Assembly (NCBI GenBank): GCA_022484805.1 | Contig: JAKVKP010000004.1 | Coordinates: 62,001 to 126,000, forward strand | Length of the DNA: 64,000 nt | From: Streptococcaceae bacterium | GTDB lineage: Bacteria; Bacillota; Bacilli; Lactobacillales; Streptococcaceae | Direction: 5' to 3' | In this document: one piece after another, positions 4,961 through 59,017 of the stretch | Layout: every line of letters begins with the position of its first letter | Position numbering within the stretch: position 1 is the first letter of the stretch | Position numbers and translations under genes: made by a program | Notes under the pieces: generated by a model | What the model was told of the DNA's origin: nothing | The model's database searches: none | What the model saw: the letters and a program-made list of their open reading frames with translations, nothing else

Positions 4961-5194
4961 TTATGAATCAAAGATTAATCGACAAATTACCCAATCCGAT
5001 GGTTCGATAAAAAATGTAGAATATACTTCACTAGAAAAATCTAGCTTTTGCTCATCACTTAACCAGCTTTTTAGCAAATAGGTAGAAGAACATTGATATT
5101 TTGCTAATAATTGTTTTAATAAAATCTCTTTTTGTAAATTTCGTTGAATTATCTCGATATTATTAAAATGATTAGCCTCATTTTTTAACCGCAT
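4961..5194 (-). CDS. Possible small protein at the end of the malate operon
   Basis: A 77-residue open frame starting at ATG 5194, which overlaps the last 17 bases of maeE, and stopping only a few bases before the operon terminator. The sequence looks protein-like, with a Leu/Lys-rich helix followed by FIEPSDWVICRLIF, but I recognise no family. The ribosome site is weak (AAGAG), so translation would rely on coupling to maeE. It could also be a fortuitous reading frame in the 3' end of the transcript. Confidence 0.35.
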   Translation of the reverse strand: MRLKNEANHFNNIEIIQRNLQKEILLKQLLAKYQCSSTYLLKSWLSDEQKLDFSSEVYSTFFIEPSDWVICRLIFDS

Positions 5195-6335
5195 CGCGAA
5201 CACTCTTGGCAACCGCCTCTGCCACACCCTCTTGAAATGCACCTGGTATGATATAATCCGGCGTTAACTCATTATCTGGAATAATGCTAGCAACACCACG
5301 CGCTGCTGCTAATTGCATCTCAATAGTAATATCTGTGGCACGAGCATCCAATGCACCTCTAAAAATACCTGGAAAGGCAATCACATTATTGATTTGATTT
5401 GGAAAATCGCTTCTACCTGTTCCAACAATATAGGCACCAGCTGCTTTGGCAACATCTGGCATAATTTCAGGAATTGGATTAGCCATCGCAAAAATAATTG
5501 GTTTATCCGCCATTGTCTGAATCCAAGCTGGATTTAATACGTTCGGTGCAGAAACGCCAATGAAAATATCCGCACCCTTCACAGCATCCTCTAAAGTACC
5601 TTCTAAATGTGATAAGTTAGTTACCTTAGCAATCTCTTGGTGATGTGCTGGTAGCTCTGGATTAGTTGCTGAGATTATACCAATTTTATCAACAACAGTA
5701 ATATTTTTCGCACCTGCATCTAGCAGTAATGAGGTAATTGATAGACCTGCAGCGCCACCACCATTAACTACAATCTGTGCAGTTTCAAGCGGTTTATCAA
5801 TCAATTTCAAACTATTAATGACAGCCGCCAATACAACAATCGCTGTACCATGCTGATCATCATGGAATACTGGAATATCTAGCTCTTCAATCAAGCGACG
5901 TTCAATTTCAAAGCAACGTGGCGCACTAATATCTTCTAAATTAATCCCACCAAATGAGGGAGCAATTGCTTTAACGTGTGCAATAATTTCTTCCACATCT
6001 TGAGTAGCCAAAGAAAGTGGAATTGCATCTACATCAGCAAAGCGTTTGAATAAAGCTGCCTTGCCCTCCATAACAGGAATGGCTGCTTCTGGACCAATAT
6101 TACCAAGACCTAAAACGGCTGAACCATCAGTGACAACAGCAACTAAATTTCGTTTAGTTGTTAATTCATAAACTTTTTCCTTATCATTAGCAATCTCAGT
6201 ACACACGGCTGCTACTCCAGGCGTATAAGCAATTGCTAAATCCTCCATTGTATCAATTCTAACTTTCGGAATGACTTCTAGCTTACCACCTTTTGCTCTA
6301 CTAATTTCAATTGCTTTTGCTTTAACATCTGTCAT
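5178..6335 (-). CDS. maeE: Malic enzyme, NAD(P)-dependent
   Basis: A 385-residue short bacterial malic enzyme that oxidatively decarboxylates L-malate to pyruvate and CO2. Visible signatures are the catalytic tyrosine in AYTPGVA, the [13 protein letters not shown] segment, the metal-binding [10 protein letters not shown] and FHDDQHGTA, and the nucleotide-binding [10 protein letters not shown]. Length fits the NAD-type lactic acid bacterial enzyme. AAGGAG precedes the ATG. It lies 29 bases after maeP on the same strand, so transporter and enzyme form one transcript for growth on malate, opposite maeKR. This is not the malolactic enzyme, which is longer. Confidence 0.93.
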
Positions 6336-6364: not shown

Positions 6365-7696
6365 TTAACTAAAAAATAAACGCATAATCGTAACCATCGT
6401 TAAAACTGTCAAAGCACCACCAAGCCGAGTTGCAACTTGGGCAAATGGCATTAAATTCATTCGATTGGCTGTTGAAAGAATCGCAACATCTCCTGTACCA
6501 CCCATGCCACTTTGACATGAGGTGATGATAGCTGCTTCAATCGGATACATATTCAAAAGACCACCAACAAAATAGCCTGTCAAAACAACGGTCAGAACAA
6601 CAGAAATAACCACTACAAAATATTGCCAAGTCAACATACCAACAGCATCTTTCAACGGAATATAAAGTAAGCCTAAACCAACCATCAATGGAAAAGTAAA
6701 GTTAGATGAGATAAATTTATAAAGCTGTTTTGAGCCTTTCGTCACATCTTCAGGTAAAAGATTTAAGTATTTAACAAACGCAGCTACTAAAATCATTAAA
6801 ACAGCGCCAGGAAAACCTGTAATATGCTCTAATAGCTTACCCGTAATAAAAATAGTACAAGCGATTAAAACACCGCCACCCATCAATTGCAAATCAGTCG
6901 GTGATTTATCCTCAGCCATTGCATCCGATAAATCTGTATCGTTAATTTTAACTAGCTCTCCGTTACCACATTTATGCTGCCATCTTTTATTTTGTCCCAT
7001 GCGACTTAAAACGGCTGAACTAATAATTGCAAAAAAATTACCGACAATCGTCGCGGGAATTAACTGACCCACAAGTTGTTCACTGGGCAATCCAGTCAAT
7101 GTACTATATCCCAGTGAGAGAGGTAAAATACCTTCACCAATTCCACCTGCTAAAACTGGTGTTACAATATAAAATAATGTATGTTCAAATCCAAGTCCTA
7201 ATAATGTACCGATTGCTGTACCAATAATCATTGCTAAAATCATACCTGTAAGCATTGGAATAATCATTCTGATTAAGCCTTGAATGAGTATTTTACGGTG
7301 CATACCTAAAATACTGCCACAAACTAAACAGGCGATATAAAAATATAAAAAATTAGCCTGCTTCATCAACATATCGGTAGCGTCTAGAACATTTTGATTA
7401 AAAACATTAAAAAAAACCAAAATTGATGGAATTAATAATGAACAAATTGCAGGACCGCCAAATAACTTTAATCCCGGAATATTCGCACCAAGCGTTCCTA
7501 AGAACCAGCCAAGTGTCAAAATAACAGCAAAGCCACCAATCATTGATACAGGTAATTGTTCCAAATAGCCAGTGACCATTACAATGACACTGACAACTAG
7601 ATAAACTGGTAACGGCAAAGCTCCTACTTTAAAACCCCTTAACTTTGTCCAACTAGCCTGCTCAGTTTTTTCAATTTTCTTTTTTGTAGCTTCCAT
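6365..7696 (-). CDS. maeP: 2-hydroxycarboxylate transporter, probable malate permease
   Basis: A 443-residue polytopic membrane protein of the 2HCT family (CitP/CitS/MleP/MaeP). It has about eleven hydrophobic segments and the two family GGxG signatures, GGIGEGILPLS near residue 185 and SGMGGTGD near residue 400, which form the re-entrant loops that carry the substrate. The family moves citrate or malate with Na+ or H+ or by exchange with lactate. Pairing with malic enzyme and an adjacent CitA/DcuS-type two-component system makes malate the likely substrate. AAAGGAG lies before the ATG. Transcription comes from the divergent control region with a cre site 24 bases upstream. Confidence 0.92.
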   Translation of the reverse strand: MEATKKKIEKTEQASWTKLRGFKVGALPLPVYLVVSVIVMVTGYLEQLPVSMIGGFAVILTLGWFLGTLGANIPGLKLFGGPAICSLLIPSILVFFNVFNQNVLDATDMLMKQANFLYFYIACLVCGSILGMHRKILIQGLIRMIIPMLTGMILAMIIGTAIGTLLGLGFEHTLFYIVTPVLAGGIGEGILPLSLGYSTLTGLPSEQLVGQLIPATIVGNFFAIISSAVLSRMGQNKRWQHKCGNGELVKINDTDLSDAMAEDKSPTDLQLMGGGVLIACTIFITGKLLEHITGFPGAVLMILVAAFVKYLNLLPEDVTKGSKQLYKFISSNFTFPLMVGLGLLYIPLKDAVGMLTWQYFVVVISVVLTVVLTGYFVGGLLNMYPIEAAIITSCQSGMGGTGDVAILSTANRMNLMPFAQVATRLGGALTVLTMVTIMRLFFS

Positions 7697-7719: not shown

Positions 7720-7734
7720 TTGAAAGCGCTTTCT
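7720..7734. promoter_or_regulatory. Perfect cre-type catabolite repression site upstream of maeP
   Basis: TTGAAAGCGCTTTCT matches the cre consensus WTGNAANCGNWNNCW at every fixed position and has a palindromic core. It lies between the presumed maeP promoter and its start codon, a position suited to CcpA roadblock or repression. Confidence 0.8.
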
Positions 7735-7886: not shown

Positions 7887-9419
7887 ATGAAAGTAAAAAA
7901 TATTGCACTTTGGATTCGTTTGACATCTTTAATTTTTTTGGTCATCTCATTGTCTGTCGGCTATTTAGCCTTTCAACTAAATAATCATTTTTATCGATTA
8001 GAACAAACAAAGCAAGAAGACAACCTAATCGCCATCGGACAATCCTTAACTCATAATCAATTGGTAATCACCCAACTCGAGCAAGAGAAAACAAGTACAG
8101 AGCTACAAGGGTTAATTACAAGCGTCGAAGAAGATTTCAAGCTCAGCTTTATTGTTGTGATGACAACAGATAGTATTCGATTAACGCATCCAAATAAAGC
8201 GGAAATTAATCAAAAATTTCAAGGTGACGATGAAAAATACACGTTACAAACCGGTAAAACCTATATTTCCACTGCCAAGGGTACAATGGGAACATCCTTA
8301 CGCGGCTTTGTACCGGTCAAAAACCAAAGTGGTCAAGTCATTGGAGCGATTGCAATGGGACTAAATTTAAAAACAATTCATAAGCAATATCAACAAATTC
8401 AAAATTTAGTAATTATTAATATGGTCATTTGTTTAATTTTAAGTGTCATTATTGCCTCTGCTGTCGCTTTTTCTTTAAAAAAGGGCATGTTAGATATGAA
8501 CCGCAGCGAAATTAAGCTATTGGATGAAAAATATCGAGTCATGTTTGAGAATGTTTCCAATGCCATTATTCTGACTGATCCCCATGACCAGATTCAATTA
8601 ATCAATCCAGCGGGTGAAAAGATAATTCAAAAAATTTTAGGCGACACAGTAATTCAGCAAAAAAAAATATCAGATATTTTTCCAATTATCAAGCAGGTGA
8701 ATCCTATAAAATCTAGTCAAAATTATTTTCAAAATGCTGACACCGATTATCTAATTTCAACCACACCACTTGAAATTAATCAAAAAAACATTGGCTCATT
8801 AGTCATTATCCAGAATATTTCAGAAATGAAGGCCCTGCTTGGTCAATTGAATAATACAACGACTTACACCGCAGCCTTGCAAGTACAAACACACGATTTT
8901 TTAAATAAAATGCACGTCATTTATGGTTTGACCGATGCCAAGGAATATCAAAAGCTACGTGCCTATCTATCCGAAATTTTAGAGGCTGACCAAGAATTTA
9001 TCAGTCGTATCACCTATTTAGTTCATAATCCTGTCATCGCAGGCTTTCTGATTCAAGAGAGAACACTTTTTATCAATCAAAAAACGAATTTAATGTTAGA
9101 GATTTATCCTGACATTCCCAACTCAGCAGACTTTATACAGACACAAAATTGGATGCAGCTGATTGCTAAAATTCATCAGATTATCCTTGAACAAGAAATT
9201 TTTGACAACTTACAGGTTTCTATGAGTTATAATCAAAAATCAATAGAAAGTCACTACCAAACTTATTTTGAGCCATTTAAGGAAAATAGAATAAGGCAGG
9301 CATTAATAACACTTTCAAATGATTATTTACTAACAATAGCCAATAGTGTCCTGACCTATTCACTAAAAGAGGGCTGGTTTGACTTGTTGTTAATCACACC
9401 CTATCAGGAGGACGAATAA
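7887..9419 (+). CDS. maeK: MaeK-like sensor histidine kinase with a degenerate ATP-binding domain
   Basis: A 510-residue CitA/DcuS-family sensor. Layout: membrane helix at 12-30, extracellular sCache-like domain at about 35-165, membrane helix at 172-196, cytosolic PAS at about 215-320, then the family phosphoacceptor box QTHDFLNKMH with His336. The region after about residue 400, which should be a HATPase domain, lacks a recognisable N box (NLIENA-like), DxGxG and GLGL boxes, although it remains in frame to a stop that overlaps maeR. Its partner maeR is intact. The sensed ligand is presumably malate, by context with maePE. The loss may mean weak kinase activity or phosphatase-only or partner-dependent function. 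The family assignment is firm; the activity is not. Confidence 0.85.
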   Translation: MKVKNIALWIRLTSLIFLVISLSVGYLAFQLNNHFYRLEQTKQEDNLIAIGQSLTHNQLVITQLEQEKTSTELQGLITSVEEDFKLSFIVVMTTDSIRLTHPNKAEINQKFQGDDEKYTLQTGKTYISTAKGTMGTSLRGFVPVKNQSGQVIGAIAMGLNLKTIHKQYQQIQNLVIINMVICLILSVIIASAVAFSLKKGMLDMNRSEIKLLDEKYRVMFENVSNAIILTDPHDQIQLINPAGEKIIQKILGDTVIQQKKISDIFPIIKQVNPIKSSQNYFQNADTDYLISTTPLEINQKNIGSLVIIQNISEMKALLGQLNNTTTYTAALQVQTHDFLNKMHVIYGLTDAKEYQKLRAYLSEILEADQEFISRITYLVHNPVIAGFLIQERTLFINQKTNLMLEIYPDIPNSADFIQTQNWMQLIAKIHQIILEQEIFDNLQVSMSYNQKSIESHYQTYFEPFKENRIRQALITLSNDYLLTIANSVLTYSLKEGWFDLLLITPYQEDE

Positions 9420-10129
9420 TGTCGAAACTAAAATTATTGATTGTCGAAGATGATCCGATGGTGCTCTATATTAATAAAAATTATTTAAATAAAATAGCCG
9501 TCTTCAATGAAATACTTGAGGCTGATTCTTTTAATATCGCCCTTGAACACCTAACTAATCATCATTTTGATCTTGTTTTAATTGACATTCACTTAAAGCA
9601 AGGCAACGGACTTGACCTTGCTAAAGCGATTCGCGCTAAAAAAATTGAAACCGAAATCATTATGGTTACAGCATCTAATAACCGAAAAGATATTCAAGAA
9701 ATGTTAAAAATTGGTATTTTAGATTACCTCGTTAAACCCTTTAACTTTAAAAGATTAGAAAAAAGTATTTTGGCTTTTGTTAAGAAAAAAAACATTCTAG
9801 AACAAGCCGAAAAAATATCACAGACAGAGATTGATACACTAATCGGATTAAATAGCAACCATAATTTATCAAACGAAAAAGAATTAGAAAAGGGCTTAAC
9901 AAAAGAAACTGCCAATCGTATGCTTAAATTGATTCAAAATGCGCCAACTATCTTTACAGTCAATGATATTCAAGCGCAAACTAAGCTATCCCATGTATCC
10001 ATTCGAAAATACTTCAAATTTTTTGAAAAGGAAGGTTGGCTGATTGCTCAAACGGAATATGGGAGTATTGGTAGACCGATTATCTATTATTCAATTAACC
10101 CTGAAGGTCAGATGCCAAGTGAATACTAA
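9419..10129 (+). CDS. maeR: MaeR-like response regulator, CitB/DcuR family
   Basis: A 236-residue response regulator. The N-terminal receiver has the acidic pocket at E10-D12, the phosphoacceptor Asp56 in VLIDIHL, the MVTAS threonine/serine and the DYLVKPF lysine. The C-terminal domain has a helix-turn-helix around KLSHVSIRKYFKFFEKEGWL. It overlaps the last base of maeK (TAATG), with AGGAGGA before the ATG, so kinase and regulator are coupled. By family precedent it activates maePE and perhaps other malate genes from repeats in the 7.7-7.8 kb control region. A perfect two-way terminator follows. Confidence 0.92.
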   Translation: MSKLKLLIVEDDPMVLYINKNYLNKIAVFNEILEADSFNIALEHLTNHHFDLVLIDIHLKQGNGLDLAKAIRAKKIETEIIMVTASNNRKDIQEMLKIGILDYLVKPFNFKRLEKSILAFVKKKNILEQAEKISQTEIDTLIGLNSNHNLSNEKELEKGLTKETANRMLKLIQNAPTIFTVNDIQAQTKLSHVSIRKYFKFFEKEGWLIAQTEYGSIGRPIIYYSINPEGQMPSEY

Positions 10130-57176: not shown

Positions 57177-59017
57177 CAATCCCACTCCTCTACTTCAAAA
57201 TCTGCTTGCTCAGGTAAGACAAGGGTAAAGGTTGAGCCCTCACCTTCTTGACTTTTTGCCCATATATAACCCCGATGAGCTTTCATTACTTCACGAGCAA
57301 TCGCTAAGCCCAAGCCTGTACCACCTTGTTTGCGCGCACGTGCCTTGTCCACCCGATAAAATCGATCAAATATTTTACCAAGATCCTTGCGTGGAATGCC
57401 CATACCTTCATCCGTTACGCTCAAAATAACCTGGTGCTGAACAGTTTTAAGTCGAACCGTGATAACTCCACCATCTGGAGAATATTTAATTGCATTATTC
57501 ATCACATTATCTATTACCTGAGTCATTTTATCTGTATCTACCTCAACCCAAGCCGTTTCTAACTGAAAATCACGCTCAATAATATATTTCTTCAAATCGC
57601 TATCATTATTCATCATTTGATCAAAACGATTTAAAGCAAATTCAACTAAATTAACGAAATTGACAATCTCTAAATCCAAATGAACATTACCATCATCCAT
57701 TCTTGATAAATTCAATAAATCATTAATCATTCGAATCATTCGATTGGTTTCTTCAAGCGAAACATCAATAAATTCAGGCGCTATTTTTTGATCACGCCAT
57801 GCACCATCCTGCAATGCTTCAAGGTAACTTTTAACAGATGTCAAAGGTGTTCTAAGCTCGTGAGAAACATTCGATACAAAATTTCGGCGTTCTCGCTCAT
57901 TCTTTTCTTGCTCAGTGACATCATGCAATACCGCAACTAAACCACTGATAAAGCCTGATTCACGGCGTAATAGAGCAAAATCTGATTTCAAAGAGATAAA
58001 ATCTTCGTTTGCATCCACTCGGTCAATCACAATTTCTGGACGATTTTCTAATAAATCACGCATTGTATATTCTTTTTCTAATTCAAAAAGCTGTAAAATA
58101 GAAGTTCCAATAACATCTGAACGCTCCATATTCAACTGATCCAATGCGGGTTGGTTAATTAAAACTACCTTGCCACGACGATCGGTTGCAATCACACCGT
58201 CAGTCATATAGGTCAAGACATTATTTAGCTTATTTTGTTCACTTTCCATTGTATCCTGTGTCCGCTCAATACGATTGGATAAGAGGTTAAAGGTTGTACC
58301 AAGCTCTGACAGCTCATCTTCACCAACAACCTTAATTTTGCTTGAATAGTCTCCGTAAGCAATCTTGAAAGCCTGCTTTTCCATCTCTTTAATCGGTTTT
58401 GTAATTGATCGAGCAAATAATAAAGCAACAACAACAGCGATTAAACCTGCTACAAAGGACGCACTGTAAAAAATAGTTGCAATATCTTGAACACGATTAT
58501 ATTGCTGACTAATGTCGCTCTTGACATAGATTGCACCTAAAACTGAGTCACCTGTGCTATTTTGGATTGGCTGAACATTGATGTAAACTTGTCGCCCATC
58601 ATCAACAATTTCCTTACGCTTCAGGGTAAAGTCCATTAAATCTAAATAATCATTTTTTTTACCAATTAATTCATCATTGCTTGAGCCCACAGCGGCACGA
58701 ATAACTTCTTTACTATCCACAATTCTCGCTTCTAGAATGTCCGAAGCGTTAAACGATTCCAATTGATTTTGCAAAACTTCATTTTTTTGCTCGTCAGTCT
58801 CTGTCATGTCGCTAAAAATATCGCCTGCACTTGTTGCAAGCTGAGAAACACGATTATTCACTGTCTCCTTATAATCTGAAATCGTGGTCTGCTCTAAATT
58901 TTGAATAAAAATATTGCCAATAATCTCTATTGAGACAAGTAAAATGAGTAAAAATGAAATCGTAATTTTAAAATTAATACTTTTCCAAAATACCCATTTT
59001 TTCTTTTTTCCAATCAA
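57176..59017 (-). CDS. walK: Cell-wall sensor histidine kinase WalK
   Basis: A 613-residue kinase. Membrane helix at about 12-33, extracellular PAS/Cache domain to about 180, second helix near 182-205, HAMP around 205-255, PAS around 260-370, dimerisation domain with SHELRTPLTSVKSYLEAL near residue 388, then the ATPase domain with NNAIKYSPDGG, DEGMGIPRKDLGKIF and GTGLGLAIA. It controls peptidoglycan hydrolases and is usually essential. The start is TTG 59017, after AGGTGG. It is preceded by walR with about 134 bases of spacer, and its stop overlaps walH. Confidence 0.95.
   Translation of the reverse strand: MIGKKKKWVFWKSINFKITISFLLILLVSIEIIGNIFIQNLEQTTISDYKETVNNRVSQLATSAGDIFSDMTETDEQKNEVLQNQLESFNASDILEARIVDSKEVIRAAVGSSNDELIGKKNDYLDLMDFTLKRKEIVDDGRQVYINVQPIQNSTGDSVLGAIYVKSDISQQYNRVQDIATIFYSASFVAGLIAVVVALLFARSITKPIKEMEKQAFKIAYGDYSSKIKVVGEDELSELGTTFNLLSNRIERTQDTMESEQNKLNNVLTYMTDGVIATDRRGKVVLINQPALDQLNMERSDVIGTSILQLFELEKEYTMRDLLENRPEIVIDRVDANEDFISLKSDFALLRRESGFISGLVAVLHDVTEQEKNERERRNFVSNVSHELRTPLTSVKSYLEALQDGAWRDQKIAPEFIDVSLEETNRMIRMINDLLNLSRMDDGNVHLDLEIVNFVNLVEFALNRFDQMMNNDSDLKKYIIERDFQLETAWVEVDTDKMTQVIDNVMNNAIKYSPDGGVITVRLKTVQHQVILSVTDEGMGIPRKDLGKIFDRFYRVDKARARKQGGTGLGLAIAREVMKAHRGYIWAKSQEGEGSTFTLVLPEQADFEVEEWD

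Follow-up and report, generated by a model that had tools for sequence, protein, structure and literature searches.

A Mae1-group malate sensor MaeK that lacks the ATP site in a Streptococcaceae bacterium

The maeK gene in the 64,000-nucleotide stretch of DNA analysed here (the window) encodes a MaeK of the Mae1 group, which is genuine and well preserved without being new: Lactobacillales MaeK proteins without an ATP site have been described and named Mae1 (Miguel-Romero et al., 2017; PMC5457438). MaeK very probably gates the phosphorylation of the response regulator MaeR without any ATP-dependent kinase activity of its own, a degree of confidence that covers the gating itself and neither of the phosphate routes discussed below. 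The initial annotation had called this an unusual control mode, which holds in comparison with ordinary two-component systems, but the state is shared by the Lactobacillales Mae1 proteins and already published. The authors of the 2017 study posed the question of how a sensor kinase without an ATP site still controls the phosphorylation of its regulator. The window adds a Mae1-type member from another genus, and our wider comparison found the ATP-site loss in a single clade only, saw no intermediates and recorded an invariant phosphoacceptor His.

The mae locus and the sensor half of MaeK

Pfam matches (Table 1) located a Cache domain, a PAS domain and a SPOB_a helix with His336 in MaeK, which is the layout of the Mae1 group and agrees with the initial annotation that the sensor, PAS and phosphoacceptor box are intact. 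The frame had also been read as open up to a stop overlapping maeR, and the open reading frame indeed ends with a stop codon that overlaps the ATG of maeR. MaeK matched the NCBIfam DcuS/MalK subfamily model with E 1.4e-72, aligned only to residue 430, and its score was less than half the cut-off. MaeR is a normal response regulator, as had been noted from the sequence: the receiver residues E10, D11, D12, D56, T84 and K106 are all intact. Its best PDB match was 5lwk (E 6e-27), which is presumably the receiver domain of MaeR from Lacticaseibacillus casei (L. casei) described by Miguel-Romero et al. (2017).

Table 1. Features of the mae locus, in window positions.
Feature	Position	Strand	Evidence or remark
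maeE, malic enzyme	5178..6335	-	NCBIfam NADP-dependent malic enzyme, E 2e-105
maeP, malate/citrate-family transporter, divergent from maeK	6365..7696	-	TIGR00783, E 1e-162
cre-like palindrome TGAAAGCGCTTTCT, upstream of maeP	7721..7734	.	read directly and by pattern match; kept in same-genus ortholog L013
MaeR-box-like TTATTTAA	7778..7785	+	exact match
Second MaeR-box-like TTATTTAA	7798..7805	-	exact match; preserved in L013
maeK, Mae1-type malate sensor, 510 aa, complete	7887..9419	+	ORF
Single Cache domain, extracytoplasmic, residues 41-172	8007..8402	+	Pfam sCache_3_2, E 2e-24
PAS domain, matched residues 214-255	8526..8651	+	Pfam PAS_8, E 7e-5, above cut-off
SPOB_a/DHp phosphoacceptor helix, residues 320-367	8844..8987	+	Pfam SPOB_a, E 7e-11
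His336, putative phosphoacceptor, within QTHDFLNK	8892..8894	+	invariant in relatives
Degenerate CA domain, residues 393-510, without N, D/G1 and G2 boxes and without ATP lid	9063..9416	+	no HATPase_c; motif table
N-box-equivalent position AKIHQIILEQ, residues 427-436, Asn absent	9165..9194	+	alignment to canonical GNLxxNALDA
maeR, CitB/DcuR-type response regulator	9419..10129	+	Pfam Response_reg, E 2.6e-26; DcuR model, E 8.5e-49

The order of maeK-maeR with a divergent maeP-maeE pair is that of the Mae1 group, and the divergent pair was found at 39 of the 41 named loci with a degenerate MaeK. The mae promoter of the window carries two exact matches to TTATT(A/T)AA on opposite strands; a repeat search found no direct repeats in this promoter, and the arrangement is palindrome-like only. 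Across 38 mae intergenic regions, this MaeR-box-like motif (TTATTWAA) was matched 48 times against 6.1 expected from base-shuffled sequence, an enrichment of about eightfold that does not amount to 38 independent counts, since the mae loci are related. The cre-like palindrome suggests that malate use may be subject to catabolite repression.

Two Enterococcus loci have other neighbours. In Enterococcus columbae (L043, 3085-4608 and 4866-7113), the degenerate maeK-maeR pair adjoins a divergent gene for an FAD-binding oxidoreductase resembling a secreted fumarate-reductase-type flavoprotein, with no maeP-maeE; this pair may have moved to another C4-dicarboxylate function. In Enterococcus canis (L041, 4995-7188), no maeP or maeE lies within about 5 kb of the degenerate maeK-maeR, whose neighbours are genes for a P-type ATPase and a phosphoesterase.

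Loss of the ATP site in a preserved C-terminus

A Pfam scan of the MaeK protein detected no HATPase_c domain, and the last 120 residues scanned alone matched nothing credible. Scanning the whole genome in six frames for HATPase_c gave 13 other domains and no match at the maeK locus in any of the frames; WalK, encoded in the same window (57179-59017), served as the positive control (E 1.3e-31). In the alignment, the N-box Asn, DxGxG and GxGL were each present in all 39 canonical relatives and absent from the window MaeK and the 41 Lactobacillales MaeK (0/42). A deletion removes the lid-to-G2 stretch in 42/42 degenerate MaeK, and the C-terminus past E391 spans 114-130 residues (median 121) in these proteins versus 137-144 (median 141) in the canonical relatives. 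An active DcuS/MalK histidine kinase would have an intact HATPase_c domain with N, DxGxG and GxGL boxes, none of which MaeK has; a CA domain without N, D, F and G boxes and without the lid is instead the Mae1-group state. The motif table, Pfam and the six-frame scan thus agree with the initial annotation that no N box, DxGxG or GLGL-type box exists in the C-terminus. The alignment with the 39 canonical relatives revealed no recognisable ATP-contact box in the window MaeK. The degenerate region begins at about residue 393 (9063), slightly earlier than the start at 9080 given in the initial annotation.

The reading that a sequencing error, a frameshift or a pseudogene explains maeK starts from the missing motifs and has nothing further in its favour. 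L013, the same-genus ortholog, whose record bears the title Enterococcus sp. MMGLQ5-1, is 85% identical over the full length of the protein, and its frame is open to the stop, as it is in almost every relative. The last 110 residues are 77% identical to those of this same-genus species, with dN/dS of about 0.07-0.09. The value for the whole degenerate CA domain (residues 393-510) is 0.08-0.10, and that for the His336 region against the same ortholog is about 0.01. Judged by the identity and dN/dS of the last 110 residues, the C-terminus is under purifying selection, although no other part of the protein is less constrained. The lack of a HATPase_c match in every frame at maeK rules out a frameshifted ATPase domain. 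With ATP-site loss also shared across the order, the probability of error or decay is negligible, and we rejected this reading.

The structure prediction that had been proposed for the C-terminus was carried out with AlphaFold using 25 aligned relatives, and gave a confident CA-like fold without a lid-sized insertion. The CA-like part consists of alternating helices and strands, with block means of confidence mostly about 89-95. The helical part was modelled poorly, probably because the protein was modelled as a monomer. The best PDB fold matches of the model were kinase cores or CA domains of AgrC, DesK and VanS, with a TM of 0.69 by target length for the AgrC CA domain (4bxi); the phosphotransferases Spo0B and ChpT were also among the matches. 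A profile of the DHp-CA region had Spo0B as its sole PDB sequence-profile match, a weak one (E 0.06). The region without the ATP site is therefore predicted to keep a CA-like fold, in common with the Mae1 group.

This predicted fold is what speaks for a divergent but active ATPase or kinase. All ATP-contact boxes are gone and the lid is deleted, and the L. casei ortholog showed no ATP binding and no autokinase activity, which makes an active domain very improbable. In detail, L. casei MaeK did not autophosphorylate and did not bind AMPPNP or Mg (PMC5457438). The loss of every ATP-contact motif, together with these published tests, supports the view that the window MaeK is kinase-dead, one of the possibilities raised in the initial annotation: a CA domain that cannot bind ATP leaves MaeK unable to autophosphorylate. 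On grounds of homology, we regard this state as nearly certain for the window protein.

One clade of degenerate MaeK

One scan of named bacterial genomes yielded 80 MaeK relatives, which together with the window MaeK split sharply into 42 degenerate proteins (the window and 41 others) and 39 canonical ones. The canonical relatives belong to Bacillaceae, Paenibacillaceae and similar groups, and the records of the degenerate ones are all titled Lactobacillales except L015. The latter is titled Sedimentibacter sp. SX930, but the tree places its maeK within Trichococcus, and mislabelling or contamination of the record is probable. In a maximum-likelihood tree built without the CA columns, one branch with 100/100 support separated the 42 degenerate MaeK from all others. 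A second tree, also without the CA columns and including canonical Lactobacillales kinases, again recovered the degenerate set as one group (100/100). His336 and Asn340 were invariant in both sets (42/42 degenerate, 39/39 canonical), and L142 and L149, the most divergent members, retain them too.

As a wider sample, 396 Lactobacillales genomes were searched, and matches were found in 71. Among the matches fetched and read from these 71 genomes, those with higher scores were all degenerate and those with lower scores canonical, with the exception of low-scoring G211 (L149), a divergent MaeK member that is fully degenerate. No intermediate between degenerate and canonical MaeK was present among them. 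Forms transitional between Mae2-like and Mae1 were considered and rejected: all of the sampled matches with middling scores, in one Lactobacillales family (f4) and elsewhere, proved fully degenerate, and the weaker matches sampled proved canonical.

Seven Lactobacillales genomes (G085, G093, G124, G133, G139, G179, G193) contain one strong and one weak match each, which fits the presence of both a degenerate (Mae1) and a canonical (Mae2-like) malate sensor in one cell; the sequence was read, and is canonical, for the weak match of G093 only (L152). Another Lactobacillales genome has a maeK-like gene in two pieces, one of them with an internal TAG (L146, G266:C6:22307-23795), probably a decayed copy. 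In all six Streptococcus maeK (L038, L042, L045, L047, L051, L082), the residue equivalent to 337 is not acidic but Thr, Ser, Lys or Arg, and the His and the +4 Asn are kept. The clade pattern, the invariant His and the loss of the acidic residue in Streptococcus should aid the design of tests, and they leave the known picture unchanged.

The phosphate route to MaeR and comparison with known systems

In the proposed mechanism, malate would be sensed by the Cache domain of MaeK, and the signal would pass through the PAS domain to the helix pair that carries His336 and to the CA-like domain without an ATP site. MaeK would then gate the phosphorylation of MaeR at Asp56 from a donor other than its own ATP, and MaeR~P would switch on maePE and maeKR. 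The function of MaeK in the window organism is transferred from L. casei by orthology, and the window protein shares only about 33% identity with its nearest counterpart from the L. casei group in our set (L035). In L. casei, MaeK and its C-terminus were needed for growth on malate, deletion of maeK or of the C-terminus abolished rather than derepressed this growth, and the phosphoacceptor Asp of MaeR was needed in vivo (PMC5457438).

The initial annotation had also allowed for a MaeK biased toward phosphatase activity. A phosphatase-only sensor, stripping MaeR of phosphate unless malate is present, would account for the conserved HDxxN motif, which is associated with phosphatase activity. However, L. 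casei MaeK failed to remove phosphate from MaeR~P in vitro (PMC5457438), and it acts positively in vivo, as the loss of growth on deletion shows; a phosphatase bias is therefore unsupported. The six Streptococcus members without the acidic residue after the His also argue against a phosphatase-only MaeK, which we consider improbable.

The route by which phosphate reaches MaeR can only be inferred. We give about even chances to passage of phosphate, or its removal, through His336, in a use of the kinase core like that of Spo0B and ChpT, because His336 and Asn340 are invariant; the residue of L. casei MaeK that corresponds to His336 is His334. Neither acetyl phosphate nor phosphoenolpyruvate phosphorylated L. 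casei MaeK (PMC5457438), and this, together with its inactivity on MaeR~P, means that there is no direct support for a role of His336. The Streptococcus substitutions combined with the invariance of His336 and Asn340 would fit a His that is still used without autophosphorylation. Two rival explanations are versions of the preferred reading, gating without own kinase activity, that settle the route, and we regard the relay through His and the pure scaffold as about equally likely.

If MaeK is a pure allosteric scaffold, malate would lead to a domain-swapped MaeR dimer that takes phosphate from a small molecule such as acetyl phosphate, and His336 would stay phosphate-free. This was proposed by the L. 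casei authors, who found that MaeR alone was poorly phosphorylated, that crystals of its receiver domain contain a swapped dimer and that acetyl phosphate does not phosphorylate MaeK (PMC5457438). The invariance of His336 and Asn340 in 42/42 members, the divergent L142 and L149 included, would be unneeded here unless these residues are structural, and the scaffold falls not far short of an even chance. If, on the other hand, His336 is phosphorylated in trans, by HPr or EI of the PTS or by another histidine kinase, and the phosphate is relayed to MaeR in a Spo0B-like manner, the invariant phosphoacceptor motif is accounted for, and the Spo0B sequence match and the Spo0B and ChpT fold matches point the same way. 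The 2017 authors named the PTS and acetyl phosphate as candidate phosphate sources (PMC5457438), and S. pyogenes ptsI/ptsH mutants showed no induction of maePE (cited in PMC5457438), but such mutants also alter metabolite pools, and phosphoenolpyruvate and acetyl phosphate left L. casei MaeK unlabelled. We put the trans relay somewhat below an even chance. That Mae1-type MaeK is a Spo0B-like membrane phosphotransferase whose His336 takes phosphate specifically from the PTS (HPr~P/EI~P) for MaeR is doubtful; if true, such a relay would couple the use of malate to sugar transport in a direct way. We also considered a second kinase of the CitA type working in trans and rejected it, with MaeK the only SPOB_a-type kinase found in the genome (assembly 90% complete); other HATPase_c kinases exist, and another source of phosphate for MaeR is possible. 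In the literature searched, we found no work after 2017 that solves the mechanism of MaeK, and a search for general pseudokinase histidine kinases returned nothing.

Among known systems, the closest is MaeK/MaeR of L. casei (Mae1), with which the window shares the Cache-PAS-SPOB_a order, a degenerate CA domain without ATP boxes, maeR downstream, divergent maeP-maeE, an intact MaeR phosphosite and MaeR-box-like promoter sites. It differs in having a MaeK of about 33% protein identity to L. zeae MaeK, and two exact MaeR boxes on opposite strands where three direct repeats are reported for L. casei. The Mae2-group and Bacillus MalK/DcuS-type kinases match it in the architecture of sensor, PAS and DHp and in the family of the response regulator, but they keep the N, D/G1 and G2 boxes that the window MaeK lacks, and are set apart from the degenerate clade in the tree (100/100). 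Spo0B and ChpT resemble MaeK in having a His-bearing helical bundle followed by a CA-like domain, and both are fold matches. The CA domains of Spo0B and ChpT are not known to bind ATP. These two are soluble relay proteins without sensor domains, whereas MaeK is a sensor located in the membrane and has a direct cognate regulator.
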